DNA from: a virus
DNA length: 38,022 nucleotides
Strand: one strand, 5' to 3'
Virus record (IMG/VR): IMGVR_UViG_3300032236_000235
Coordinates: 1 to 38,022 of that record
The translations under genes and the position numbers were made by a program. Positions 2,448 through 25,868 of this stretch are shown one piece after another; the stretch's first letter is position 1; each line of letters starts with the position of its first letter. The notes beneath the pieces were generated by a model, which saw only the letters and a list, made by a program, of their open reading frames with translations, made no database searches and was not told the DNA's origin.

Positions 2448-2807
2448 TCAATACGCAAACTCTTCGGAACGCTCCCAAGCCAAATCATCGGCTTGACCGT
2501 ATGCCTGATACGCCTCGGAACCGTAAACGGCACGACCAGCTTCCCAAGAATCAAAACCAACTGGCAACTTACCCAAGGCCAAACGAGCGTTCAAGGCGGC
2601 GGCTTGGGCCTCTGCCTTTGCAACAGCATCGGCCTCTGAACGATCAACAGCGACAGACTTGACGCGGGTATCGCCGGACTCTGATACGGCGCAAACGTAA
2701 GCGGCAAAACCGTAGATGTAACCGCGAGGGTTGCTGTAATCAGCCATCTCTGAATCTTGACCAATAACCACGATGTCGGCGTAGGCGGTGAATTGAGTTA
2801 CTTGCAT
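2448..2807 (-). CDS. Alanine-rich phage protein of unknown function
   Basis: A 119-residue protein (MQVTQFTAYADIVVIGQDSE). It has a beta-rich N-terminal half containing RGYIYGFAAYVCA, then a long Ala-rich helix (about residues 57-79) and an aromatic acidic tail. AAGGA lies before ATG 2807. It is the first gene after promoter module A, so it is probably strongly transcribed. No known domain recognised. Confidence 0.7.
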   Translation of the reverse strand: MQVTQFTAYADIVVIGQDSEMADYSNPRGYIYGFAAYVCAVSESGDTRVKSVAVDRSEADAVAKAEAQAAALNARLALGKLPVGFDSWEAGRAVYGSEAYQAYGQADDLAWERSEEFAY

Positions 2808-2818
2808 TTTGATTTCCT

Positions 2819-2876
2819 TTTTCAGTTACCCTGCTTATTGCAGTGATTGGGATCTTAACACAAAATTAAGATGATG
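2819..2876 (-). promoter_or_regulatory. Promoter/leader module A with operator dyad
   Basis: Positions 2852-2872 form a perfect inverted repeat, ATCTTAA-N7-TTAAGAT. On the minus strand it overlaps an extended -10 (TGTTAAGAT). The following leader contains CTGC-N5-GCAG and GGGTAACTGAAA, and almost the same block recurs near 4530-4580. The module therefore looks like a repressible promoter for the genes from 2807 leftwards. The -35 is poor, as expected for an extended -10 promoter. Confidence 0.6.
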
Positions 2877-2879
2877 TGG

Positions 2880-2905
2880 GGGTAGGTGTTTTCCCTACCC
2901 TTTTT
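2880..2905 (+). terminator. Terminator-like hairpin facing right
   Basis: GGGTAGG (2880-2886) and CCTACCC (2894-2900) form a 7-bp stem with a 7-base loop, followed by TTTTT on the plus strand. On the minus strand it would be preceded, not followed, by the tract. It sits directly after the stop of the leftward DUF932 gene, where it could stop rightward antisense transcripts. Confidence 0.5.
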
Positions 2906-2908
2906 CCC

Positions 2909-3763
2909 TTATGCCGCCATCAACTCCTCAATCTCTACCACGTTGGACTTGAGCTTGGCAAACTGGTCAGCCAGCGTCCACAGGGCGCGGTTGAGGCGCA
3001 CGTTTTCGTTGACGCCCTTCACGCCGCGTGTGCTCATGCGGCGACCAGTGGCGGTGCGTCCGGGCACGCCACCCTTGATCATGTTCTCCTGAACCCGGTT
3101 AAAGGTCGTCCAGAGGTCAGGCTTGGCGTCTTGGTAACGGAAGGGTTGCAAGATGCCCTCGGTGGTCACGGGAGCCTTGCCCTCGTCCCAGCGCAGTTGC
3201 AGGGCGGCATTTGCAAACACTTGGGACTCACCCTCGTTCAACGTGATGGCCTTGTAGGTGTCAATGCGGGCCATGATCTCCTCGGTGTTCTCCAGCACGC
3301 GGGTTGCGCCCTCAATCACGTTGTCCACCACGTTGCCATGGTGGCGCACCCGGATGTCGCTGAACACGTCCCCGGCGATCAAACCGTTGGAGCACACAAA
3401 GCGAAACACGCCCGACAGCAATTGGTAGCTGGAAGTGCCGTCGTGGCTGTTGATCAACACGATCTCAGGAACCTCGTCGTTGGTGATCAGGCTGGATGCG
3501 TGGCGCAGGCGAACCATGTGCTTGGTGTGCTCGCGCTTGTCGAGGTCGCGCACCTTGGTCTGACGAACCTCAAAGGGTTGGAAACCTTCGTCACGCAAGG
3601 CGTCGATCACCTTGATGGTTGGGATGAAGGTGTACTTCTCGCCACGGCTACTGTGAGCCTCACCAGCCAGCACGCTGGGCGCGTAACGGGCGATGACGTC
3701 GTTGGACAACTCGGTCTGTGAACGGAAGGCGGCTTGGTTGGAGCTAGATGCAAAACGGTACAT
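2909..3763 (-). CDS. DUF932/DUF945 phage protein
   Basis: A 284-residue protein that resembles the DUF932 family found on phages, plasmids and genomic islands (relatives of YfjQ/YafZ). Visible features that fit: an N-terminal region leading to EKYTFIPTIKVIDALRDEGF, then HMVRLRH, the central EIVLINSHDGTSSYQLLSGV, FRFVCSNGLIAGD and the HHGNVVDNVIEG segment. AAAGGA precedes ATG 3763. The biochemical role of the family is not established; abundance and an anti-restriction role have been proposed for relatives, which I treat as uncertain. Neighbouring genes are small and unknown. Confidence 0.8.
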   Translation of the reverse strand: MYRFASSSNQAAFRSQTELSNDVIARYAPSVLAGEAHSSRGEKYTFIPTIKVIDALRDEGFQPFEVRQTKVRDLDKREHTKHMVRLRHASSLITNDEVPEIVLINSHDGTSSYQLLSGVFRFVCSNGLIAGDVFSDIRVRHHGNVVDNVIEGATRVLENTEEIMARIDTYKAITLNEGESQVFANAALQLRWDEGKAPVTTEGILQPFRYQDAKPDLWTTFNRVQENMIKGGVPGRTATGRRMSTRGVKGVNENVRLNRALWTLADQFAKLKSNVVEIEELMAA

Positions 3764-3782
3764 GATGATTTCCTTTGAAGAG

Positions 3783-3983
3783 TTAAACGGGTTTCAGTTT
3801 CATTTGACGCTCGCGCAGAGCATCAATCTCGGCCCACAGCTTGACGTAGTAGGGGTCATCTGTGGGTAGGTCACGACGCAATTCCAAAGTGTCATAGCAG
3901 TCGATCAAAGCGCGACGGCAGGTGAACCAGTCGTAGTGCTTGACCTTGTTCTCAAAAACTTTGTGCATTTCGCCGTATGTCAT
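3783..3983 (-). CDS. Small phage protein of unknown function
   Basis: A 66-residue protein starting MTYGEMHKVFENKVKHYDWF. ATG 3983 has a good AGGAG ribosome-binding site and lies directly after a tetraloop hairpin; the longer in-frame start at 4205 would run through the upstream gene. It is helical and charged, with CRRALIDCYDTLELRRDL in the middle. No known domain. Confidence 0.65.
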   Translation of the reverse strand: MTYGEMHKVFENKVKHYDWFTCRRALIDCYDTLELRRDLPTDDPYYVKLWAEIDALRERQMKLKPV

Positions 3984-3996
3984 GGTGTTCTCCTGT

Positions 3997-4012
3997 GGGG
4001 GCCGTAGCCCCC
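3997..4012 (-). promoter_or_regulatory. Intergenic UACG-tetraloop hairpin (copy 2)
   Basis: The minus strand reads GGGGGC-TACG-GCCCCC, a 6-bp perfect stem with a C-UACG-G loop of the UNCG class. It sits between the stop of 4018-4230 and the Shine-Dalgarno of 3783-3983. No U-run follows. Confidence 0.6.
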
Positions 4013-4017
4013 GTTGG

Positions 4018-4230
4018 TTAATTGTTGGTGGTACGGAATACGCAATCGCGTTGAGTGCCTTGTTCGACTTCTTTGACGGTGTCAAACCCACGCACACCAC
4101 AATCTTTTTCGTCGTCCCACACAAAGTCTTCGTCAAGGGTAACGATGATGCTATTGCCGTCACCGCGCTCGTCGTCGATGTGGGCCACCCAAGGGCGAGT
4201 GGCAAGGATTTTTAAAAAAGTCTTTGACAT
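4018..4230 (-). CDS. Small acidic phage protein
   Basis: A 70-residue protein from ATG 4230 (MSKTFLKILATRPWVAHIDD). The start is supported by an AGGGGGG-type Shine-Dalgarno; the frame further upstream (to 4410) is antisense-like sequence inside the previous gene. The protein is acidic in the middle (TLDEDFVWDDEKDCG). Function unknown. Confidence 0.6.
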   Translation of the reverse strand: MSKTFLKILATRPWVAHIDDERGDGNSIIVTLDEDFVWDDEKDCGVRGFDTVKEVEQGTQRDCVFRTTNN

Positions 4231-4243
4231 GTCGCCCCCCTGA

Positions 4244-4519
4244 TTAACGTGCAGTGACTTTGACAGAAAACACGGCGGTGGTGTTGGTGTACTTTGCAAC
4301 GACATCATCGGTGATACCGAGGTCGGCGTACATTTTTTTGGTATCGACAACCTTGCGGTTTGCTTCGATGTAGGTGGCCTTGAACAGCACACCCTCGACG
4401 GTTTTACCACCGTCTTTGATTTGGTCTTTGATGGCGTCTGCCTGCTTGGTGAGGTCAGCGATTTGAGCCAAGAGTTGACCCAGAGTGTCTACAGAGTTGA
4501 ATGCGAGATCGTTGTTCAT
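4244..4519 (-). CDS. Phage protein with N-terminal coiled coil
   Basis: A 91-residue protein (MNNDLAFNSVDTLGQLLAQI). Residues 13-37 form a likely amphipathic helix (LGQLLAQIADLTKQADAIKD), and the rest is a small alpha/beta region. It is the first gene after promoter module B. No strong Shine-Dalgarno lies close to ATG 4519; the conserved leader just upstream may serve in translation instead. Function unknown. Confidence 0.65.
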   Translation of the reverse strand: MNNDLAFNSVDTLGQLLAQIADLTKQADAIKDQIKDGGKTVEGVLFKATYIEANRKVVDTKKMYADLGITDDVVAKYTNTTAVFSVKVTAR

Positions 4520-4526
4520 TTCAGTG

Positions 4527-4600
4527 TCTTTCAGTTACCCTGCGAATTGCAGTGAACGAATCTTAACACAGAATTAAGAATTGATGTAAAGCAATACCCA
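4527..4600 (-). promoter_or_regulatory. Promoter/leader module B with operator dyad
   Basis: TCTTAA (4561-4566) and TTAAGA (4574-4579) form an inverted repeat over an extended -10, TGTTAAGAT, on the minus strand, with a possible TTTACA -35 about 18-19 bases upstream. The leader (CACTGCAAT-NN-GCAGGGTAACTGAAA) is almost identical to that of module A. It should drive 4244-4519 and the genes beyond. Confidence 0.6.
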
Positions 4601-4609
4601 ACTATTTTG

Positions 4610-4689
4610 TGGGGATTTAGCAAATATTCAATGTTTCTGGGGATTTGCGGGGATGTAACCGTTCGGTAATCGGTTACCTTCTGGTTACC
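4610..4689. repeat. Short repeats in the intergenic control segment
   Basis: TGGGGATTT occurs at 4610-4618 and 4638-4646 and GGGGAT again at 4649-4654. GTAACC (4655-4660) is inverted against GGTTACC copies at 4672-4678 and 4683-4689, which are 11 bases apart and run into the end of the HNH gene. They may bind a protein or belong to an origin; nothing in the sequence decides. Confidence 0.35.
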
Positions 4690-4949
4690 AAAAGCTCAAT
4701 GGTGTCGGCAAGGATGTCCAACTCGTCCACGCTGTGGCGCTTGAAGTCGTCCCTCGTCCCATGCCAGCCCTTGGAGCCTGTGTGGTGGGCAGGGCAGAGG
4801 GGAATGACCAGCCAATTGCTTTGGCGTTGGGCCATCCCCACCCCCTCCCGTGGATGATGTAGCTGGGCTGGGGTCTCTCCGTACCCCATACGCCTACACA
4901 TGCCGCACCCTAACTCAGCCACGGCATTCATCCACTCTTTTTCGGTCAT
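4674..4949 (-). CDS. Ref-like HNH nuclease
   Basis: A 91-residue protein resembling the phage P1 Ref (recombination enhancement, RecA-dependent nuclease) group of HNH enzymes. Visible zinc and catalytic residues: C15 and C18, the pair H31-H32 in QLHHPREG, then NWLVIPLC with C52, AHH (55-56) and H63. RecA-dependent cutting of DNA at displacement loops is known for P1 Ref; here it is inferred. It is linked by ATGA to 4946-5287 and lies in the recombination/replication block with a RusA-type resolvase, which supports a role in phage recombination. Confidence 0.75.
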   Translation of the reverse strand: MTEKEWMNAVAELGCGMCRRMGYGETPAQLHHPREGVGMAQRQSNWLVIPLCPAHHTGSKGWHGTRDDFKRHSVDELDILADTIELLVTRR

Positions 4950-5287
4950 ATCGTGACCTTATCCTGAACCCTATTGGACGCTTCTATAGACCGCCAGACG
5001 TCAATTCGGGCTTGGGCGGCTATCAGCATCCACCGAAGCTTTTCTTCGGCCTCTACGGCCTGTTTGATGGCTAACAGGTGTGCTCTGTAGTTGGGGTCGC
5101 TGTACGCCTCACGCTCCTGCGCGTTGACGGCCTCAAACCCATGGTGCAGGGCGGTCTTGCAAAGCTCTGCCTTCAGGGTCTTGCGAAGCTCTTCCATGTA
5201 GATGCGGTTGGCCCTTGCTTGGGCGTACTCGCCTGACTTGGCGATGATGTAGTCAATCGCTTGGTTGGGGTCGGTCATCTGACTCAT
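4946..5287 (-). CDS. Conserved helical phage protein
   Basis: A 113-residue, mostly helical protein. It has YAQARANRIYMEELRKTLKA near the N-terminus, AQEREAYSDPNYRAHLLAIK in the middle, and EKLRWMLIAAQARIDVWRS near the end. This pattern is common in phage recombination/replication clusters, but I know of no assigned function. ATG 5287 has GAGGTGAT upstream and an ATGA overlap with 5284-5700. Confidence 0.7.
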   Translation of the reverse strand: MSQMTDPNQAIDYIIAKSGEYAQARANRIYMEELRKTLKAELCKTALHHGFEAVNAQEREAYSDPNYRAHLLAIKQAVEAEEKLRWMLIAAQARIDVWRSIEASNRVQDKVTI

Positions 5288-5700
5288 GCCATCACCTCGA
5301 CTCTTCCATCGCGGTAGTGCAGGCGATTAAACACCCGGCTGGGGTAACTCAGGAAGTCCTGCGCACCGGGCCTTGTCACCATGTCGCGCAACTCTTCGCC
5401 ACCGTAAACGGTCTTGACCAAGTCCTCTTTGTGGTTTCGCACGCGAATCTTTTTGGTTGCACCCAAGTCCCTCAGGCGCTCTTCACCGGCGGGGGTGATA
5501 TTCCAAAACCCATCACGGGACTGCACAAACCCATCCTTCTTCAACGGGTCGATGACGTATTGAAAAAATCTCTGGATCGAAATGTTTTCGGTTTGTGTTC
5601 GCCACTCTTGTTCTGTCATGGGACAGCGGGCAATTCTTTCCAATCCCCGGTGGATCATGGAGCCACGGGTATAGAAAGAGCGGATGGGTTCAGCGTTCAT
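5284..5700 (-). CDS. Winged-helix-like phage protein
   Basis: A 138-residue protein (MNAEPIRSFYTRGSMIHRGL). Residues about 10-80 look like a winged helix: helices around IARCPMTEQEWRT and QRFFQYVIDPLKKDGFV, then a strand pair ending in FWNITPAGEERL, as in many small DNA-binding regulators. The C-terminal part is basic. GGAGAATTT precedes ATG 5700, and it overlaps rusA by ATGA. DNA binding is inferred from the pattern. Confidence 0.6.
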   Translation of the reverse strand: MNAEPIRSFYTRGSMIHRGLERIARCPMTEQEWRTQTENISIQRFFQYVIDPLKKDGFVQSRDGFWNITPAGEERLRDLGATKKIRVRNHKEDLVKTVYGGEELRDMVTRPGAQDFLSYPSRVFNRLHYRDGRVEVMA

Positions 5701-6122
5701 AAATTCTCCAGTTGTACGATCAATAACCCCGGCTTCTCACCGGGAAACCTGTAGACAGAAATTGGCTGAAAGAACTTGTCGTCCACACCCAACGCCTGCG
5801 CTACACCATCAAGTCCCGCCTTGCTCGCCGCCAGCAAGTTGTCCACATCCCTATGGCGCTTGTCCGGCATGAAGTACATCAGCGTTACCCTGATCTCTTT
5901 TCCATCGTTGATGAAATCTTTTCCTTCCTGCTTAGTCAGATAAAAACAATCCTCTCTGTACTGAGTCTTGACCTTGTGGGTTGCCGCCCAATGCTTTCCG
6001 TTTTTGTTGTTGGGCATCAACTCGCTTGGGGGGAACGGAAGCCTTAGCAAGGTTGCGTTGGGTTTCCATGCGTCGTATAAGGTCGGCAAGTCCTTGATCG
6101 CCACGGATGCGTTCAATGTCAT
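5697..6122 (-). CDS. rusA: RusA-type Holliday junction resolvase
   Basis: A 141-residue protein of the RusA endonuclease family, which cleaves Holliday junctions. The catalytic region is clear: DKRHRDVDNLLAASKAGLDG at residues 87-106 supplies D92, D94 and K101, followed by LGVDDKFF with the further acidic pair at 114-115. The N-terminal LPFPPSELMPNNKNGKHW is also typical. ATG 6122 is chosen because AGGAG lies six bases upstream and it forms an ATGA overlap with 6119-6337. An alternative TTG at 6050 would give the usual shorter RusA start but has no ribosome-binding site. It overlaps 5932-6222 in another frame. Confidence 0.85.
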   Translation of the reverse strand: MTLNASVAIKDLPTLYDAWKPNATLLRLPFPPSELMPNNKNGKHWAATHKVKTQYREDCFYLTKQEGKDFINDGKEIRVTLMYFMPDKRHRDVDNLLAASKAGLDGVAQALGVDDKFFQPISVYRFPGEKPGLLIVQLENL

Positions 6123-6222
6123 TCTTGACTCCTACCCACCAAGATTGCGCGTTCTCTAACCCTAAAGCGCCAATCTTTTCTTTCCTCCTCCTCAGCCACT
6201 CCCGCGCCTCGCAGTTCTTCAT
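5932..6222 (-). CDS. Phage protein overlapping rusA in another frame
   Basis: A 96-residue frame from ATG 6222 (MKNCEAREWLRRRKEKIGAL), with GGAG about 12 bases upstream. CEAREWLxRR followed by WWVGVKNDIERIRG and LxDLIRRM is a pattern I associate with small phage proteins encoded next to RusA. Its last 190 bases lie inside the rusA reading frame, and its first 104 inside 6119-6337. An in-frame ATG at 6321 forms ATGA with 6318-6515, but the extra N-terminus does not look protein-like. Function unknown. Confidence 0.5.
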   Translation of the reverse strand: MKNCEAREWLRRRKEKIGALGLENAQSWWVGVKNDIERIRGDQGLADLIRRMETQRNLAKASVPPKRVDAQQQKRKALGGNPQGQDSVQRGLFLSD

Positions 6223-6337
6223 GTGGTCTAAGGTCTCCGGTGAGATAGAGGCAATGATCGGTGAGAGTCTCGGAGCCAATATTGCCTTCGCGGATCTGGT
6301 CGAGGATTTTGTTCGCTTCATAACGGGTCATAGTCAT
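6119..6337 (-). CDS. Small phage protein ('YEANKILD...TGDL' type)
   Basis: A 72-residue frame beginning MTMTRYEANKILDQIREG. The first 37 residues, ending in CLYLTGDL, resemble a common phage protein type (EANxILDxVR...TGDL) that precedes RusA genes. The remaining 35 charged residues look like out-of-frame reading of the overlapping gene 5932-6222, as if an earlier stop had been lost. The stop overlaps rusA by ATGA. No clear Shine-Dalgarno is seen. Confidence 0.55.
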   Translation of the reverse strand: MTMTRYEANKILDQIREGNIGSETLTDHCLYLTGDLRPHEELRGAGVAEEEERKDWRFRVRERAILVGRSQE

Positions 6338-6515
6338 CTGTTTCGTAAAACGGTTTTACAGGGGGCTGAGTGAACTTTGGCTTGATCATCTCTTCGTATG
6401 GATCTTCTGTTGCCCATGCGTGCTTGGAACACTTCTTCCAACCCGCACTGACAGTCCAACGAGCATTGCAACCAAGCACTTGGCACTTCAAGGGATCTAT
6501 ATCGGGTTTTTCCAT
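6318..6515 (-). CDS. Small Cys/His phage protein, possible zinc binding
   Basis: A 65-residue protein (MEKPDIDPLKCQVLGCNARW). Cys 11, Cys 16, Cys 29 and His 32 are spaced like a small zinc-binding knuckle (CQVLGC...KKCSKH). The C-terminal half is Pro/acid rich. It overlaps the end of 6497-6880 by 19 bases, which suggests translational coupling. Function unknown. Confidence 0.65.
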   Translation of the reverse strand: MEKPDIDPLKCQVLGCNARWTVSAGWKKCSKHAWATEDPYEEMIKPKFTQPPVKPFYETDDYDPL

Positions 6516-6880
6516 GGTTTACCTCTTAACTTGGCAAGGTTTTCTTTGGCTTTGCGTACAACCTCAGGATCCACAGGGGTAGGGTTGTATTCGATCTGTT
6601 TCTCATCTCTCGGTATAGCAGGGCCAGCATTGCAAAACTCTCGAAACTTGATGGCGCTCGGCGGAAAGTCCCCACTGAGCCTCCCAAAAGCGTAATCAAG
6701 GCTTGGCTTGTAGGTCAAAAACGAGCCAAGTTGGTCTTTCCAAATCTGCCTAACAACACCCAAGTCCATACCCTCCCAGTTACGGTTAAATGCCTGACCA
6801 TAAATGCCACCCAGCATCACAAAAACGTAATCAAGGCCAGCCTCTGCATCAACAAAATCAGCTTCCGAGTAATTTGACAT
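6497..6880 (-). CDS. Lambda P-like helicase loader / replication protein
   Basis: A 127-residue protein from ATG 6880 (MSNYSEADFVDAEAGLDYVF) with GGGAG eight bases upstream. The middle (WxxQLGSFLTYKP.LDYAFGRLSGDFPPSAIKFREFC, gaps marked by dots) resembles the phage replication protein P group, which recruits host DnaB helicase to the origin. It is shorter than lambda P, so only the conserved part may be present. Its place directly downstream of the DUF1376 replication protein, overlapping it by 23 bases, matches an O/P-type pair. Helicase loading is inferred. Confidence 0.65.
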   Translation of the reverse strand: MSNYSEADFVDAEAGLDYVFVMLGGIYGQAFNRNWEGMDLGVVRQIWKDQLGSFLTYKPSLDYAFGRLSGDFPPSAIKFREFCNAGPAIPRDEKQIEYNPTPVDPEVVRKAKENLAKLRGKPWKNPI

Positions 6881-7574
6881 TTTGTCCACTCCCAATAAGT
6901 CCACGAGTCAAGCCAGACATGACAGTCTGATTCATTACGCCAGTCTTGGTCAAGCCATTGGCTTGTGGTTTTTCGGCAACCCACTCGGCCTTGAATGACG
7001 TCCAGTTGCGGACAACCACCTCAGCCAAGGCCCTCTCCAGCGACCAACCAGCCTTGTCTGCCTCACGCTGAATACCAGCCATCACCAACCCAGTAATCTG
7101 CGCCTTCTTGACTTTCCGCTGTTTGACAAACTGATCCCAAACTTCTGATGACACGCCGTCAGGCGGAGCGACGTCAGTCGCTGTCTTCTTTGTTTCTTGG
7201 TTATTGTTTAATGGTTCTTGTTTCTTGTTTGGTTGAACGTCTGTTGAACGGGCGTTGCTCCTGCGTTCAGCAGATGCCTTACCGGCCCTTGAAGCCTGCT
7301 CGATTTTGCCGTGGTAATGCTTGATCTCACGGTCGGCGCGAGGGTTGATCCACCCCTCCTCAGAGTTGTGAAAAAACTCCTCAAGGATTAAATGCACCTT
7401 GTCCTCATGTTCACGCATGCCAATCTGGCGTGCAACCGCCGCCACACTGACGTTCAACGGGCGTTCATGAAGGTAGTACAGATCAAGAAGTCGGCGGTAC
7501 GCCAAGTCCTCTAGCAAGTCCAAATGGTTTGTGTGCGACTTATAGTCGCCAATATTGAATTGGTAGTAGTGCAT
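6858..7574 (-). CDS. DUF1376 (YdaU-like) replication protein
   Basis: A 238-residue protein starting MHYYQFNIGDYKSHTNHLDL at ATG 7574, with GGAG five bases upstream. Residues 1-90 match the DUF1376 layout (HYYQFNIGDY, LDLLEDLAYRRLLDLYY, VARQIGM), seen in prophage proteins that take the place of the lambda O initiator. A low-complexity Asn/Gln/Lys linker (about 110-140) separates a C-terminal helical domain (WDQFVKQRK...WTSFKAEW). It is the second gene of the leftward operon and is followed by a P-like gene, so DNA replication initiation is the likely role. Confidence 0.8.
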   Translation of the reverse strand: MHYYQFNIGDYKSHTNHLDLLEDLAYRRLLDLYYLHERPLNVSVAAVARQIGMREHEDKVHLILEEFFHNSEEGWINPRADREIKHYHGKIEQASRAGKASAERRSNARSTDVQPNKKQEPLNNNQETKKTATDVAPPDGVSSEVWDQFVKQRKVKKAQITGLVMAGIQREADKAGWSLERALAEVVVRNWTSFKAEWVAEKPQANGLTKTGVMNQTVMSGLTRGLIGSGQNVKLLGS

Positions 7575-7634
7575 ATTTTCTCCGCTGTCCTCCACTGACA
7601 AAGAAACTGCGGCAGGCGGGGAGGCTCGCTTTTC

Positions 7635-7656
7635 GGTGGGGAGATCAGGCCCCACC
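7635..7656. terminator. Strong hairpin between repressor and replication genes
   Basis: GGTGGGG (7635-7641) and CCCCACC (7650-7656) form a perfect 7-bp GC-rich stem with an 8-base loop. No U-run follows on either strand, so it may attenuate or stabilise the leftward transcript instead of ending it. Confidence 0.4.
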
Positions 7657-7676
7657 TAGCCGTGTTTCAAACCATC

Positions 7677-7880
7677 TTACAACGAAAAAAGGTCAGGGCG
7701 CAATACCTCGCGCTTCACCAACCCCTGCGTTGCTTTCTCAATCTTCACCGCCAACTCTGCTGACGGACGCTTGTGGTTGTGGATCAAAATAGATAACCAT
7801 GTCGCAGTGATGCCCAAATGTTGTGCCATCTCATTCACCGCTCCCATGGGTTCATCTTTGAAATACTCTTTCAAGTCCAT
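7677..7880 (-). CDS. Cro/YdaS-type HTH regulator
   Basis: A 67-residue protein (MDLKEYFKDEPMGAVNEMAQ) with a helix-turn-helix at about residues 13-36 (VNEMAQHLGITATWLSILIH), followed by KRPSAELAVKIEKATQG, typical of the YdaS/Cro group of phage regulators. It is the first leftward gene; GGAGAG lies before ATG 7880, and two near-palindromic sites lie just upstream. It probably binds those sites and represses its own promoter and the rightward one. No separate CI-like repressor is seen in the window. Confidence 0.8.
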   Translation of the reverse strand: MDLKEYFKDEPMGAVNEMAQHLGITATWLSILIHNHKRPSAELAVKIEKATQGLVKREVLRPDLFSL

Positions 7881-7894
7881 CTAATTCTCTCCTG

Positions 7895-7984
7895 CCCGCG
7901 AGTATACCTTAACTTGCAATTAACAAAGCCCCTCAGTTTTCATCAGGTATTTCTAACTTGAAATTAAAAAGTGTGGTGTAATTC
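7895..7984. promoter_or_regulatory. Divergent control region with two operators
   Basis: Two near-palindromes of the form (T/C)TAAC-N5-ATTAA lie at 7909-7923 and 7953-7967, 44 bases apart. The left one sits just upstream of a leftward -10 (TATACT, complement of 7901-7906), so binding would block it. TTGAAA at 7958-7963 is a good rightward -35, although its -10 (around 7977-7984) is weak. The region separates the leftward and rightward early operons. Confidence 0.6.
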
Positions 7985-8021
7985 GTTTGCGCCGATGTTG
8001 GCGTGTTACGAGAAAGAAGTT

Positions 8022-8168
8022 ATGAAACCCACAAGAGAGTCAATTGACTACGCCTGCTCTGTCGAGCAATTTTCCCCAAAAAACAAATTCGCTGATGCTT
8101 GCGTGAGGGTCGTCCTTGCGGTGGCATTTGTAGTCGTTCTGCTGGATGTTTTCGTATGGAAACCTTGA
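8022..8168 (+). CDS. Small membrane protein, first rightward gene
   Basis: A 48-residue protein from ATG 8022 (MKPTRESIDYACSVEQ) with AGAAAGAAG upstream. A hydrophobic helix (about residues 26-44, VRVVLAVAFVVVLLDVFVW) makes it a single-pass membrane protein. The longer frame from 7971 would start over the promoter. It overlaps the next small gene by 13 bases. Function unknown. Confidence 0.6.
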   Translation: MKPTRESIDYACSVEQFSPKNKFADACVRVVLAVAFVVVLLDVFVWKP

Positions 8169-9497: not shown

Positions 9498-9701
9498 ATG
9501 GTCGCCAAAAAACCTGCAACAAAATTTCCGCGTACCCGCAACGCTGAAAAACAAGACAACTTTGCCATCGGCGTGTCCTCATCCCACTACTGGATGATCA
9601 CCGGGATGGCCCAATCCCAAGAGGGAACCCGCACGCAAGTGCTCAACGAAATGATTGAGCATTACATCCACACCGTTCTTGCTAAGGGGAACACAAAATG
9701 A
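9498..9701 (+). CDS. Small ribbon-helix-helix-like protein
   Basis: A 67-residue protein from ATG 9498 (MVAKKPATKFPRTRNAEKQD) with AGGA upstream. A basic N-terminus is followed by a strand (NFAIGVSS) and two helices (YWMITGMAQSQEGTRTQVLNEMIEHYI, given only in part), the order of a ribbon-helix-helix DNA-binding protein. The stop overlaps the exonuclease start by ATGA, so it may regulate the operon. Confidence 0.5.
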   Translation: MVAKKPATKFPRTRNAEKQDNFAIGVSSSHYWMITGMAQSQEGTRTQVLNEMIEHYIHTVLAKGNTK

Positions 9702-10465
9702 CAACAATCATTGCAAGGGCCAGCGAATCACAGCACTGGTACGACAAGTCAGGCAAGCCGATGTACTCGGTCAAGGCCAAGGATGGCTCCGACCGCCCCA
9801 CGACCCTCAGGGACGCCCGAAAATTGAATTTGATACCCTCGGTCACCACGATCATGGGCGTGGCGGCAAAGCCCGGTTTAGAGGCTTGGAAGATGAATCA
9901 GATGATGATGGCGGCACTCACCCTGCCACGCGCACCTGACGAGCCTGAGGAGCAGTTTGTTGAGCGGATCCAAAGGGACGCCAAGGAGCAGGCCAAGCAG
10001 GCGGCAGAACGCGGAACCCGCATCCACGAGGCGCTGGAAAAGTTCTACGAGGGGGTGATGTACTCCGAGTACGCCGAACACCAAGCGGGCGTTGATAGCG
10101 CCATGCGCAAGTACTTTGGCAACCCAGAGTGGAAGACAGAGACCGCCTTTGCCAGCCACTACGGGTACGGTGGAAAGATTGACCTGCACTCCATGGAAGA
10201 CGACGGGATTGTGGTTGACTTCAAGACCAAGGAGTTCACAGACCCAACCAAGATCGCGCTGTACGACGAGCTACCAATGCAGTTGGCGGCATACCGCATG
10301 GGGCTAGACATTCCCCATGCTCGGTGCGCAAACGTGTTTGTTTCTGTTACCCAACCCGGCCTCGTTGAGATCAAGGAATGGACTGAGGAAGAGCTTCGGC
10401 GTGCATGGCACATGTTCTACGCGCTCAGGCAGTTTTGGTACGCAAAAACAGGATTGGAGGGTTGA
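9698..10465 (+). CDS. PD-(D/E)XK phage exonuclease
   Basis: A 255-residue nuclease of the Cas4/RecB-like phage exonuclease group. Visible motifs: GTRIHE (106-111), E148 in KTETAF, GGKIDL with D162, VVDFKTK with D174 and K176 (the D-x-K core), and QLAAYR (195-200). Such enzymes digest double-stranded DNA ends to prepare single strands for annealing or strand invasion. The SSB-like gene in the same operon fits this role. I see no separate annealase (Beta/Erf/RecT) gene in the window. Confidence 0.8.
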   Translation: MTTIIARASESQHWYDKSGKPMYSVKAKDGSDRPTTLRDARKLNLIPSVTTIMGVAAKPGLEAWKMNQMMMAALTLPRAPDEPEEQFVERIQRDAKEQAKQAAERGTRIHEALEKFYEGVMYSEYAEHQAGVDSAMRKYFGNPEWKTETAFASHYGYGGKIDLHSMEDDGIVVDFKTKEFTDPTKIALYDELPMQLAAYRMGLDIPHARCANVFVSVTQPGLVEIKEWTEEELRRAWHMFYALRQFWYAKTGLEG

Positions 10466-12507: not shown

Positions 12508-14129
12508 GGTCGTCTAGCCTTTTCTCTTTCTCGCGCCTTCTTCATGGTTTCTTCCCAATTGGAATTTTGCTCTTGTATCAATCTTTGATAAACACGATTT
12601 TCAGCTTCCACTAATGGGTGTTGTTCTTGTATTGCATGAAACGGGGCAGGAGTCCCAGACTCCAATGCGCGTGGCAATGCCTTATTGATTGCGCCATAAA
12701 GATTTTGCGCGTGTTCAATATGGATTTTGTTCATTTCAATTTGGTGTGCAATTGCCTGCGGGCCTTGCAAAATACCAGTTTCTTGCAACAACAATTGTTT
12801 AAACTTTTCCGCACCCGCAGATTCAGGGCTGATGCCACGAGCCAGCAAACTGTAATAAGACAATGTAGCCAAATTATTGGTAAAGGCGTCCTGATAATTT
12901 TGCAATACAGGAGACAGTGCACCCTTTGCCCCGGCTTCCACAGGAATGGAAATTGAAGCGGCATTACCGTACAAGCTAACCACAACGCCAGCTTGTGCCA
13001 TAGTGGCGGCAGGGCCTAATTTTCTGACCTGATTGGTGATGTCATCAACCATGTCGGGGTTTTTCTTAATGGCCTGATCGGCTCCATCAAGAGCGCCCTT
13101 TACAACACCTAGCGTCGTTGGGCTATTTATGATTTGCAACTGTTTGTATTGGTTGGCTGGTTGCTCTTCAACGGCTTTGGCGGTACCAATTACAGCCGCA
13201 TTTGCTTGTCTTTCATTTTGCGTTAACAAGCTATCAGGGCCGTTATGTGGAATGGCAAAACGATTTTGAATTTTAAAGTTTGTAAAGTCTGGACGTCCGG
13301 GTTCAAACTGCCCTGCCTCAGGCAAAAAACTTGGAGCAGAAGTTTCTGGTAAGTTTTTATTGGCCCCTGTGGCTGTCTTAAAAGCCGTTGGCGACGCTGA
13401 GCTTGCGGGAACATCACTTTGATCGGTAGATTTTCCGTCGCCCTGATCTGTATCCTTTAATCGCGGATTTTTTGCAGTATTCTTTGTTCCTGTTGGCGCA
13501 ATAATTGGAGTCAACTTTTCTTGAAGAGACTTTAAATCGGCTATTCCTTGGTTGTATTCTTCAGCAGTTATTTGACCATTTATTTTTTGGTCGTTAAGTA
13601 TGTTTCTCTTGTTTGTGATTACGGATGTAAGCAATTGATTTTGCGACACACGCAAAGTCTGATTGGTTTTTTCTGCATCCAAGGCGGATTTGGCGGCAAT
13701 GGCGGATGCTGAATTTGGAGCCAGTCCAGCAATTTCAGCATAAGTATCTTCATCCATTGGCTCGCCAGTTTTTTTCCACTCAGAAAACTTTTGGGCCGCA
13801 TCTTGGTTTTGTCCCATTGATATTTTGGACAGCGCAAGTTGCGCCCTTAATTGAGCAATGGGCAATTCCGAAGTTCTTTGGTTCTCAAGATTCTCTGCCA
13901 TCGCTTCGTTTGCGTTACCCAAGGATGCAATAAAGCCACCTAATTGAGGTTTTGCAAATCCTGCGGCAACCTTAAACCAATTAGGTTGCGCATATCTTTG
14001 CTCCAGAGCCGACAAAGAATCCTGCAATGCTTTTTTATATTCTTCTGTATCCTGATCCCTTGCCCCGTACAAATTTACTTTGCTTGGGTCAACAAAATTT
14101 ACTGACGCTAAAGGTGAAGGTTCTGCCAT
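12504..14129 (-). CDS. Putative internal virion/ejection protein
   Basis: A 541-residue protein (MAEPSPLASVNFVDPSKVNL), with AAGGA before ATG 14129. The N-terminal part is helical (YKKALQDSLSALEQRYAQPN), followed by a GFAKPQLGGFIASLGNANEA stretch found in several phage structural proteins, then a disordered Ser/Thr/Asp-rich linker (about 215-265) and a C-terminal helical domain. Together with the genes on either side it forms a set of three or four large proteins at the end of the late operon, as for podoviral ejection proteins. Function inferred. Confidence 0.55.
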   Translation of the reverse strand: MAEPSPLASVNFVDPSKVNLYGARDQDTEEYKKALQDSLSALEQRYAQPNWFKVAAGFAKPQLGGFIASLGNANEAMAENLENQRTSELPIAQLRAQLALSKISMGQNQDAAQKFSEWKKTGEPMDEDTYAEIAGLAPNSASAIAAKSALDAEKTNQTLRVSQNQLLTSVITNKRNILNDQKINGQITAEEYNQGIADLKSLQEKLTPIIAPTGTKNTAKNPRLKDTDQGDGKSTDQSDVPASSASPTAFKTATGANKNLPETSAPSFLPEAGQFEPGRPDFTNFKIQNRFAIPHNGPDSLLTQNERQANAAVIGTAKAVEEQPANQYKQLQIINSPTTLGVVKGALDGADQAIKKNPDMVDDITNQVRKLGPAATMAQAGVVVSLYGNAASISIPVEAGAKGALSPVLQNYQDAFTNNLATLSYYSLLARGISPESAGAEKFKQLLLQETGILQGPQAIAHQIEMNKIHIEHAQNLYGAINKALPRALESGTPAPFHAIQEQHPLVEAENRVYQRLIQEQNSNWEETMKKAREREKARRP

Positions 14130-23686: not shown

Positions 23687-24243
23687 GCCTTGTACCTTTC
23701 CTTTGCTTCCTGCTTTAGTCTAGCCTGCTCCTGTTCTTGTTTGATGATGTCACGGGTCTCAAATGTTCGGCTATACAAGGCCCCCATTTCTTTGGGCGCA
23801 CCGTATACCATCGCCTCCCTTATCTCAACCTCCAGCGCCGCCATCTGATCCTGCGCCACGATCCGCTTCAATGCGGCCTCCATCAGATTGGCATCAGGGT
23901 CATAGACGTTCTTGCTCTTCTCTTCCTCTTGTCTTATGTGCGCCGCTAACTGCTCCTGAAGGCGAAAGAACGTCGTCAATTGTTCTACGATGTCCGACAT
24001 CACCTTGGTCTCGTCAACGCTTACATAGGCTTCCTTCTTTTTCTCCACAGGCTTTGGCGCTTTTGGTTTTGCTCCAAAGAGCTTAGACCAGAACCCACGG
24101 ACTTCGATTGCGACACCAACAGCTTCGTCAATGGTTGACCTGACCTCCATGAAGGACTCTTTGCACTGCTTGTACAAAGCGGTTCCTTGCTGAATTGCGC
24201 TAACGCAAGCCTTTGCGGCGAGGAGGATAGAGATCGGGTCAAT
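23563..24243 (-). CDS. Helical membrane-anchored phage protein, probable ATT start
   Basis: A 226-residue frame if it starts at ATT 24243, directly after the stop of 24244-24459; an alternative TTG at 24177 gives 204 residues. The upstream part (IDPISILLAAKACVSAIQQG) matches the usual N-terminus of this aquatic-phage protein type, which normally begins M-(I)-D-P-I. The rest is coiled-coil-rich (LTTFFRLQEQLAAHIRQEEE; REAMVYGAPKEMGALYSRTF) and ends in a membrane helix (YLVATTIFLLYLWMWLLFIS). GGGG lies about eight bases before ATT. Function unknown. Confidence 0.6.
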   Translation of the reverse strand: MDPISILLAAKACVSAIQQGTALYKQCKESFMEVRSTIDEAVGVAIEVRGFWSKLFGAKPKAPKPVEKKKEAYVSVDETKVMSDIVEQLTTFFRLQEQLAAHIRQEEEKSKNVYDPDANLMEAALKRIVAQDQMAALEVEIREAMVYGAPKEMGALYSRTFETRDIIKQEQEQARLKQEAKERYKAWQRAEAKRNFQAKSAYLVATTIFLLYLWMWLLFISRLGKT

Positions 24244-24459
24244 TTACAGCCCCAAAAGCTTTTTCACGAACTCGGCGGCAACTCCGGGGCCAAACAGCAC
24301 AGTCAAGATCACCGCATACAGCAAGTATTCAATCTTGTTCATGCGCTTGGTTCCTTCGTCAAACCGAGCCTGAATGCCTTCATATCGTTGAGCGCAGACC
24401 GCCTCATGGACACTTAGGCGCTTGTCAGTCTCAGTAGCGAGTTCGTGAATTTCAGCCAT
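24244..24459 (-). CDS. Small membrane protein, XhlA/holin-like layout
   Basis: A 71-residue protein with a helical N-terminal half (ETDKRLSVHEAVCAQRYEGI) and one membrane helix near the C-terminus (KIEYLLYAVILTVLFGPGVA). This order of coiled coil then single membrane helix resembles XhlA-type lysis-associated proteins. Its place at the head of the lysis/membrane block supports a link with lysis, but it could also be a structural membrane protein. Confidence 0.55.
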   Translation of the reverse strand: MAEIHELATETDKRLSVHEAVCAQRYEGIQARFDEGTKRMNKIEYLLYAVILTVLFGPGVAAEFVKKLLGL

Positions 24460-24462
24460 TTT

Positions 24463-24696
24463 TTACTCTGCCGTTACTTCTTTTGCCTCGGCAGGTTGAT
24501 CTGCCAAAGCTTGTTTCAACATGTTGAAAAACGTGTCTCGACCAACTTGCAGTTGATCCAAGTTGAAGCGTGCAGAACTTACTTTTCGCTCCAAATCAAC
24601 AACGTGATCCAAAAGCGATTTTTGTTGCTCATTCAGCTTTTCAACGTCGTACTCGACACCATCAATGATGAGTTGGGGTTTTGTGTTGTTACCCAT
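24463..24696 (-). CDS. DUF6447-like small phage protein
   Basis: A 77-residue protein (MGNNTKPQLIIDGVEYDVEK). The strand pair LIIDGVEYDVEKLNEQQKSL followed by a long coiled coil (VDLERKVSSARFNLDQLQVG) resembles a small protein common in cyanophages and other aquatic phages. TAAGGAG lies six bases before ATG 24696; another ATG just upstream is out of frame. Function unknown. Confidence 0.6.
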   Translation of the reverse strand: MGNNTKPQLIIDGVEYDVEKLNEQQKSLLDHVVDLERKVSSARFNLDQLQVGRDTFFNMLKQALADQPAEAKEVTAE

Positions 24697-24714
24697 TTCA
24701 TGCTCCTTAAGTTA

Positions 24715-24734
24715 CCGCCATCTTGGGCTGGCGG
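24715..24734. terminator. Short hairpin between fibre gene and small gene
   Basis: CCGCCA (24715-24720) and TGGCGG (24729-24734) form a 6-bp stem with an 8-base loop in the gap after the fibre gene. No U-run follows on the minus strand. Partial termination or mRNA stability is possible. Confidence 0.3.
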
Positions 24735-24752
24735 CTTGCCCATATTGTCAAA

Positions 24753-25868
24753 TTACGCAACAAAATTGCCCGAATACCCATAAGGGCCTATTGGCAATAT
24801 TTTGTAATAACTTCCAGCCAAAGGCGTGACTGTTCCAGCACTTGATGTGACATTGAATCTTAAATTTTTGGCTCCAGCACCACCCGCAGTATTTATAGTC
24901 CCTTTAACAATAAACAAATGGTTTGTTGCGGTTGTCAAAGAGGCTGATGCCGCAAAAGCCGCTCCAGCAGATGTGCTACCAATTATGTTTGCATACTGAG
25001 GCGTTCCTACCGCCGTTCCACCAGCCACCGCATCCATTTCAAGGTGTGCATTGATGTAGTTTGGCGCAACGCTTGATGTCAGGGTGACGGTCACAGTACC
25101 TGCCGTGGTTTTAGTAAAGTACAAGTAAGCTTCAATTTCAAAAACCTGAGCAGGTTGGAGGGATACCGCAGAGTTTGCCCCAAAGAAATTGCTAATGGTG
25201 GGGCCAATTGCAGATCCTGCCGAATAAAGCCTCCAATAAAGAATATTTGGTATATACCCTCTTCCATTCAGCGTTGTAAAGTAAAGGCCGGGGTTTGATC
25301 CAAAATTAACTTCATCGAAAGCATATTCAATGTTTCCGTCTGTACCTTGTACCAGTGGGGACAAATAACCAGAAGCCATGTTTATTGGAACTGGGCCATT
25401 ATTTGAAGATGGAGCAGACGCTACAGATATATAAGCATTTGATGTTGGTGATGTACCAAGCCCAACAGTTCCGCTGAATGTAACCCCGCCAGTGGTGGCA
25501 ATGCGCATCGCCTCGGAGCTACCCATAACGAATGTCATTGGCAAAACAGTGCCGCTACCTCTGGCGTTAGAAGTTATGCGGGCTTCTGTATTTGAATTTG
25601 CTCCAATTGAAATACTTAAAACCGCTCCATTTGTGATAGCAGAATCAGCTTCCAAATTGATAGATGACTGAGTTGCCGTGCCGTTTGGAATAAAACCAAC
25701 AATAGTGTTTTGGTTTGTGGTGCTTGTCTGGATTTGCACACGATTAGAAACAGTCGCATTACTGAAGTCGCCGGTGATGCGGTTACCCGTACCCGTAAAT
25801 GTCAGGTTGCCAGATATGGTGTCTGATGGGGTTGTAATCCCAGTTGTCCCATTGATTGTTACTGTCAT
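24753..25868 (-). CDS. Tail-fibre-type protein 5
   Basis: A 371-residue beta-rich protein (MTVTINGTTGITTPSDTISG) of low Lys/Arg content, typical of phage fibres. NGTTGITTP at the N-terminus is common in fibre proteins of aquatic phages. The C-terminal half (about 175-371) contains FYFTT-type strands such as AYLYFTKTTAGTVTVTLTSS and could be a receptor-binding domain. AAGAGG precedes ATG 25868. It is the last of five consecutive fibre-type genes. Not assignable beyond this. Confidence 0.65.
   Translation of the reverse strand: MTVTINGTTGITTPSDTISGNLTFTGTGNRITGDFSNATVSNRVQIQTSTTNQNTIVGFIPNGTATQSSINLEADSAITNGAVLSISIGANSNTEARITSNARGSGTVLPMTFVMGSSEAMRIATTGGVTFSGTVGLGTSPTSNAYISVASAPSSNNGPVPINMASGYLSPLVQGTDGNIEYAFDEVNFGSNPGLYFTTLNGRGYIPNILYWRLYSAGSAIGPTISNFFGANSAVSLQPAQVFEIEAYLYFTKTTAGTVTVTLTSSVAPNYINAHLEMDAVAGGTAVGTPQYANIIGSTSAGAAFAASASLTTATNHLFIVKGTINTAGGAGAKNLRFNVTSSAGTVTPLAGSYYKILPIGPYGYSGNFVA

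Follow-up and report, generated by a model that had tools for sequence, protein, structure and literature searches.

A predicted YdaS/Cro-like repressor regulon with portable operator cassettes in a viral genome record and its relatives

Results

Four copies of one dyad at promoters

The window analysed here is a whole IMG/VR virus record of 38,022 bases (IMGVR_UViG_3300032236_000235), and the subject of this study is a 15-bp dyad present at four sites in it, together with a 67-residue YdaS/Cro-like protein that is the candidate regulator of these sites. The exact motif TTAACNNNNNATTAA (TTAAC-N5-ATTAA) was found at 2855-2869, 4563-4577 and 7909-7923 (sites 1 to 3) with no other copy in the record, and the form CTAACTTGAAATTAA (CTAAC-N5-ATTAA) at 7953-7967 (site 4). 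All four sites are intergenic. Those at 7909 and 7953 lie between the leftward regulator gene (start 7880) and a small rightward open reading frame (ORF; ATG 8022), and those at 2855 and 4563 overlap an extended -10 element, TGTGTTAAGAT; the leftward ORFs 2448-2807 and 4244-4519 have their start codons 47 and 43 nt farther downstream. An initial annotation, made from the sequence alone, had listed the same four positions, two between divergent operons and two on extended -10 elements within the leftward operon; the matches are exact, and the ORF and promoter positions agree with this placement.

7677-7880, minus strand: YdaS/Cro-like repressor of 67 aa, encoded by the first gene of the leftward operon (PF15943; profile matches 8co2, 8c7k, 3bd1)
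Recognition helix of this protein: Thr27 and Ser30, proposed specificity residues from the comparison of relatives
7901-7906, minus strand: -10 of the leftward (regulator) promoter, TATACT, read from the sequence
7909-7923: operator site 3, 2 bp ahead of the -10 TATACT in the leftward promoter of the regulator itself; in the same place in relatives, e.g., L004 and L005
7953-7967: operator site 4 (CTAAC-N5-ATTAA), 44 bp from site 3 and covering the -35 region of the rightward early promoter
7974-7982, plus strand: extended -10 of the putative rightward early promoter, TGGTGTAAT, read from the sequence
7990-8009, plus strand: 5'-leader hairpin of the rightward transcript, CGCC-GATGTT-GGCG, then TGTTAC, read from the sequence
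8022-8168, plus strand: first rightward ORF, about 49 aa, MKPTRESIDYACSVEQ...; a similar protein occurs in L007
4563-4577: operator site 2, overlapping the leftward-firing extended -10 TGTGTTAAGAT
2855-2869: operator site 1, overlapping the leftward-firing extended -10 TGTGTTAAGAT

The motif is far more frequent than expected by chance. For the exact form, Markov controls of order 1 and order 3 gave expectations of 0.05 and 0.02 against the 3 copies observed (0 of 300 runs of each reached 3), and the reversed pattern had no match in the window. When up to one mismatch was allowed, 7 matches were found against 1.50 expected, a number reached in none of 100 shuffles; the three matches besides the four sites (11470, 13212 and 22130) lie inside coding sequence on the opposite strand and are consistent with the chance expectation. 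The initial annotation had also considered that the motif might be just as common inside coding sequence; the exact form was found three times against at most 0.05 expected, always between genes. The motif scan that it proposed for the genome and for related phages gave this excess in the window and, as described below, a recurrence of the N5 geometry in three clades; the excess together with the spacing controls in relatives rules out that the four sites are due to chance.

The 67-residue protein belongs to the YdaS/Cro family

The regulator matches Pfam PF15943 with 46.4 bits (cut-off 30), a family whose YdaS proteins still carry the toxin name in Pfam, and also a PHROG family annotated as "transcriptional repressor". 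A profile built from 15 relatives led to the "Cro" structures of CP-933P YdaS (8co2 and 8c7k) and to Xylella Cro (3bd1), which confirms the family given for this protein in the initial annotation. An AlphaFold2 (AF2) model was built for the homologue in L079 rather than for the window protein itself (predicted local distance difference test score 91.7); its best match in the Protein Data Bank was YdaS 8co2_A (template modelling score 0.89 by query length, 1.1 A, Foldseek E 1.3e-3), and the L079 homologue is thus predicted to have the YdaS/Cro fold. Ser30 of the window protein corresponds to residue 29 of the model and falls inside the recognition helix, because the predicted helix spans model residues 25-32. 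By our reading of the helix-turn-helix (HTH), Ser30 aligns with Asn31 of lambda Cro and Thr27 with Ser28, both of which contact DNA in lambda Cro.

The dyad geometry is shared by relatives

Scans of 2.9 million viral contigs yielded 80 regulator loci and 80 DUF932 loci, and later scans added more distant regulators. In three clades of these relatives, the pattern YTAAY-Nk-RTTAR gave 16, 112 and 81 hits at k=5, compared with at most 1, 8 and 30 at the best other spacing; the dyad geometry of the window is therefore a property of the whole group. In many relatives, operator sites lie next to the gene of the regulator itself. A search of genome_contigs for prophage relatives in bacterial genomes found none of the regulator, and a DNA-level search of named phages with the window gave no match. 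Among INPHARED genomes, tblastn detected one regulator relative, in MW202545.1 (L292), with a Gly30 regulator and C-type sites. This record is described as a complete, circular siphovirus genome of 57 kb, and it carries a cluster of six tRNA genes at 24240-24815. Another relative, L044, contains a strong match to the Betaproteobacteria-1 RNA at 13632-13749 (106.7 bits, gathering score 49.4), a possible clue to the group of hosts that these phages infect.

Operator bases covary with residues of the recognition helix

To compare regulators with their operators, half-sites were searched in the upstream regions with the outer base left free, and L211 was left out of the tallies as a non-homologue. 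For Gly30 regulators, the last base of the upstream sites is G (half-site CTAA), and for Ser30 regulators it is mostly A (half-site TTAA); in the window, the outer base of the half-site is T. Among 108 unique regulators, an operator could be called for 81, and the outer base was T in 42 of 42 cases with Ser30 and C in 36 of 36 cases with Gly30 (a first tree test, with Ala grouped with Ser, had found 72 of 72 callable regulators concordant and is superseded by this wider tally).

A second switch involves residue 27. Where the regulator has Glu27 and Lys31, the sites are of the form TTGAA-N7-TTCAA (22 at k=7, at most 2 at other spacings), and their arrangement is the same, in the divergent region of the regulator and in internal cassettes. 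In the upstream regions, TAAY-N5-RTTA was present for 54 of 82 regulators with Thr or Val at position 27 and for 0 of 17 with Glu or Ser, whereas sites of the TTGAA-N7-TTCAA type were present for 14 of these 17 and for 0 of the 82, without any crossing between the two site types (three Ala27 regulators had neither type, and six regulators were too short upstream). In a Ser27 clade (L237, L222, L258, L260 and L241), the regulator's own promoter has half-sites of the TTG.A/TTCAA type with looser spacing, and the operator is poorly defined.

Several observations weigh against reading these relations as a recognition code or limit their force. No site could be called for 27 of the 108 regulators, and Ala30 regulators are inconsistent in the outer base (2 C and 1 T), which rules out a strict rule that residue 30 alone fixes this base. 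At the locus level, L095 is a counter-example (a Ser27 regulator with TTAA sites, where other Ser27 regulators have the TTGAA type). Strict sites number at least 3 in 34 loci, of which 24 have the same outer base throughout (13 T, 11 C) and 10 are mixed. Most counts in relatives include related sequences. A tree built without the recognition helix, itself poorly resolved, needs only 4 residue changes and 3 operator changes; it contains 3 independent-path pairs over all branches and 1 on well-supported branches, and three pairs fall below the requirement of a sign test. In addition, 5 of 16 records encode HTH_3 proteins, which means that some relatives have a second HTH regulator.

There is good comparative evidence that the regulator reads the four sites, though independent switches are few. 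The regulon proposed in the initial annotation, in which the 67-aa protein controls its own region and two internal promoters, gains comparative support from the recurrence of the N5 geometry and from the covariation of recognition-helix residues with operator bases. The few switches, and the other HTH proteins encoded by some relatives, would also fit a different DNA-binding protein, either a host factor or a second phage protein, that reads the sites while the correlation with the YdaS-like protein merely reflects clade membership. We regard this as unlikely: many relatives have the sites next to the gene of the regulator itself, the covarying residues lie within its recognition helix, two separate residue-base relations hold, and no HTH_3 match was found in the window's record.

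Sites 1 and 2 are parts of portable cassettes

The two internal sites are parts of a longer repeated unit (operator, -10, hairpin and GGTAACTG) that was absent from the initial description. This cassette is about 50 bp long; its extended -10 overlaps the operator, and its leader hairpin has stems that can be exchanged. The sequence common to sites 1 and 2 beyond the dyad is TTAATTNTGTGTTAAGAT, 7-8 nt, and CACTGCAA..GCAGGGTAACTG, followed by the start codon.

4534-4577, minus strand: cassette 2; operator, -10 at 4565-4560, leader hairpin CTGC/GCAG (4552-4549 with 4543-4540), GGTAAC at 4539-4534
4244-4519, minus strand: 91-aa protein behind cassette 2; weak phrog_6244 match; a protein with a similar N-terminus stands behind a cassette in L027
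2825-2869, minus strand: cassette 1; operator, -10 at 2857-2852, leader hairpin CTGC/GCAG (2843-2840 with 2834-2831), GGTAAC at 2830-2825
2448-2807, minus strand: 119-aa protein behind cassette 1; no Pfam or PHROG match
2880-2900: terminator-like hairpin, GGGTAGG/CCTACCC, in the interval from the end of the DUF932 gene to cassette 1; T-run on the plus strand, read from the sequence

An exact scan of IMG/VR for the cassette form returned 7 contigs, all of them already among the nearest relatives found by protein. A more general form (site, (R)AT, hairpin, gene start) occurred in 115 unique contexts at k=5, compared with 0-1 at each spacing of k=2-4 and k=6-9. The ORFs downstream of these 115 contexts fall into 24 clusters, a few of which are doubtful or spurious (e.g., those starting VLCK, VLHP or LKQG), and by our reading the cassette precedes about 18-24 gene families in relatives. 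In relatives it stands before different genes, e.g., in L004 and L005 at the second cassette. At the position of the window hairpin 2880-2900, relatives have hairpins of differing sequence.

The hairpin is conserved as a structure and exchangeable in sequence. A 4-bp stem at offset 7-12 was present in 77 of 89 unique leaders, compared with a mean of 9.2 and a maximum of 18 in shuffles that preserve single-base content only. The stems have nine different sequences, mostly followed by GTTA, GGTAA or GTTTA, and among the 12 leaders without a perfect stem, four read CGGTC...GATCG, which pairs with one G-U. Relatives likewise retain a leader hairpin, with other stems, at the position of the rightward transcript (7990-8009 in the window). 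Counting 6-7 nt from the -10, the RNA would begin one base ahead of the stem. Hairpins at 5' ends are known to slow 5'-end-dependent mRNA decay, and a protective role is therefore proposed for the cassette hairpin. The comparison with related phages suggests that two of the four sites belong to a reusable switch, placed before many unrelated genes by different phages.

The overlap of sites 1 and 2 with a -10 element, and the AT-richness of promoters in general, might indicate that the repeats are merely conserved promoter sequence (an AT-rich spacer with an extended -10) for the host RNA polymerase with no regulator bound. This seems highly improbable to us: the spacing of the dyad is fixed and its outer bases track a regulator residue, and promoter function alone does not account for the shared dyad, which at site 3 stands upstream of the -10 and at site 4 covers a -35 region.

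Discussion

A proposed circuit of early shut-off

The comparative evidence can be assembled into the following circuit. After infection, the regulator, as the first leftward gene, would be produced from the promoter that holds site 3, and it would bind as a dimer to the 15-bp dyad (its half-site, from the centre outward, being 5'-GTTAA-3'). As it accumulates, it would close its own leftward promoter through site 3 (autorepression), repress the divergent rightward early promoter via site 4, and repress the two internal cassette promoters, in which the extended -10 overlaps the operator (sites 1 and 2); repression would work by excluding RNA polymerase. The cassette hairpin, at or next to the predicted mRNA 5' end, probably guards the transcript against 5'-end-dependent decay, and a gene that gains a cassette would join the regulon of the repressor. 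We consider this explanation as a whole (a Cro-like repressor acting on four sites, portable cassettes and early shut-off) to be probable, on the strength of comparative sequence analysis.

The regulator might instead act mainly as an activator at some promoters, e.g., the rightward one, where site 4 lies over the -35 region in a position open to activators and where, as elsewhere, the -35 elements are weak by eye; this is scarcely likely, since the dyads at sites 1-3 overlap or abut the -10 or spacer, which fits polymerase exclusion, and the published YdaS represses both divergent promoters (PMC8630535).

As to timing, the regulator's place as first early gene, its proposed autorepression and the fact that no integrase was found favour Cro-like behaviour (an early burst, then shut-off) over lysogeny maintenance. 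The tyrosine integrase profile PF00589 had matches in 0 of 20 records and the resolvase profile PF00239 in 0 of 16 records, and in control genomes the two profiles were positive in 14 of 14 and 10 of 14. Many records are fragments, which makes the missing integrase a weak argument. A lambdoid immunity region would have a divergent CI-type repressor as well as an integrase; no HTH_3 match was found in the window, and its first rightward ORF encodes the small protein of about 49 aa.

Comparison with known systems

One of the closest known systems is that of CP-933P YdaS (8co2, 8c7k), which shares the Pfam family and the fold. According to PMC8630535, CP-933P YdaS binds and represses its divergent promoters as a Cro analogue; as in the window, the repressor gene lies beside a divergent early region, with two protected stretches in CP-933P, and the sites overlap promoters. 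Unlike in CP-933P, a lambdoid prophage in which YdaS is paired with CI and CII analogues, no CI partner or integrase was found here. The same paper describes the precise binding sequence of CP-933P YdaS as still to be determined, whereas a dyad and two specificity positions are proposed here.

The stoperators of cluster A mycobacteriophages offer a second comparison: one repressor serves many dispersed sites, and the motifs diverge together with the repressor (PMC6550527). Stoperators, of which a genome may hold up to about 30, are asymmetric sites of 13 bp at which elongation is halted, whereas the window has four sites, all of them dyads over or at promoters.

The portable unit itself has a counterpart in T4. 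The promoter-early stem-loop elements of this phage (Arbiol et al. 2010) are reported to be mobile promoter and stem-loop cassettes before unrelated small genes, which would imply gene shuffling. A near-identical promoter and stem-loop unit before unrelated genes is present here as well (115 contexts and 24 ORF clusters, a few of them spurious); unlike in T4, the cassette holds a repressor operator and the hairpin stands at the predicted mRNA start. Nothing in the data groups these phages with the T4 type, and the description of MW202545.1, the only named relative, as a 57-kb siphovirus argues against such membership. The region between the divergent promoters also recalls OR/OL of lambda with Cro, in that operators lie between divergent promoters beside the gene of a small HTH protein that represses its own synthesis in lambda and probably does so here. 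It differs in that there are two sites rather than three, that no CI was found, and that further operators stand within the leftward operon in portable cassettes.

In the open-licence PMC literature, we found neither a published residue-operator code for the YdaS family nor cassettes of this type that carry an operator. Setting 108 regulators against their operators yields a concrete, testable recognition code, and the cassettes illustrate how accessory genes could be brought into a regulated phage programme in a single step. More tentatively, as a possibility about which we have some doubt, apparently non-integrating phages might build a regulon from portable units of operator, extended -10 and 5' hairpin, with the whole site set switching specificity along with residue 30 (Ser or Gly, for T or C) and residue 27 (Thr/Val or Glu/Ser, for TTAA or TTGAA-type sites). 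If so, the recognition code of the YdaS family could be read from sequence, and phages that show no evident lysogeny would have immunity-like types. Together, the repressor and its cassette would form a compact switch set with at least three specificities.

Structured RNAs near the regulator

A further feature lies directly downstream of the regulator gene.

7589-7666, minus strand: int-alpA-like structured RNA with a three-way junction; RF02996, 33.3 bits

The score in the window is under the gathering score of 35.8; at the homologous place in L247, the match reaches 39.9 bits and is above gathering, and L061, L016, L287 and L008 have sub-threshold hits at the same place. In an alignment of 18 of 19 related sequences (L024 was left out and the ends were trimmed), all 18 fit the three-way junction, with 93.9% of cells paired and both-side changes in four pairs; none of 500 shuffles was as high for pairing and both-side changes, and 47 of 500 reached the number of further pair types. 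The fixed pieces GGCTAGG, CCGAAAAG and CGCCTGCC inflate this conservation because the sequences were picked by pattern over 93 regions; the inner part of helix 2 was free in the selection pattern. In L213, a match of 32.3 bits at 3936-4002, far from the regulator, may be another int-alpA-like copy.

Modular, structured-looking RNA segments of another sort were noticed in relatives and considered as a possible part of the system; they were not found in the window. No Rfam match was obtained in the loci searched, and there was no tRNA call in the ten relatives searched. The segments have conserved ends and hypervariable interiors, stand singly or in arrays between the regulator promoter and the start codon (L048, at about 9550-10000; L036, at about 9600-10000; L032, L019, L041, L230 and L095), and by simple patterns form three kinds with 12, 21 and 12 unique copies. 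They also occur elsewhere in the genomes, being listed too for L084 (16031-16260) and L181 (9426-10040).

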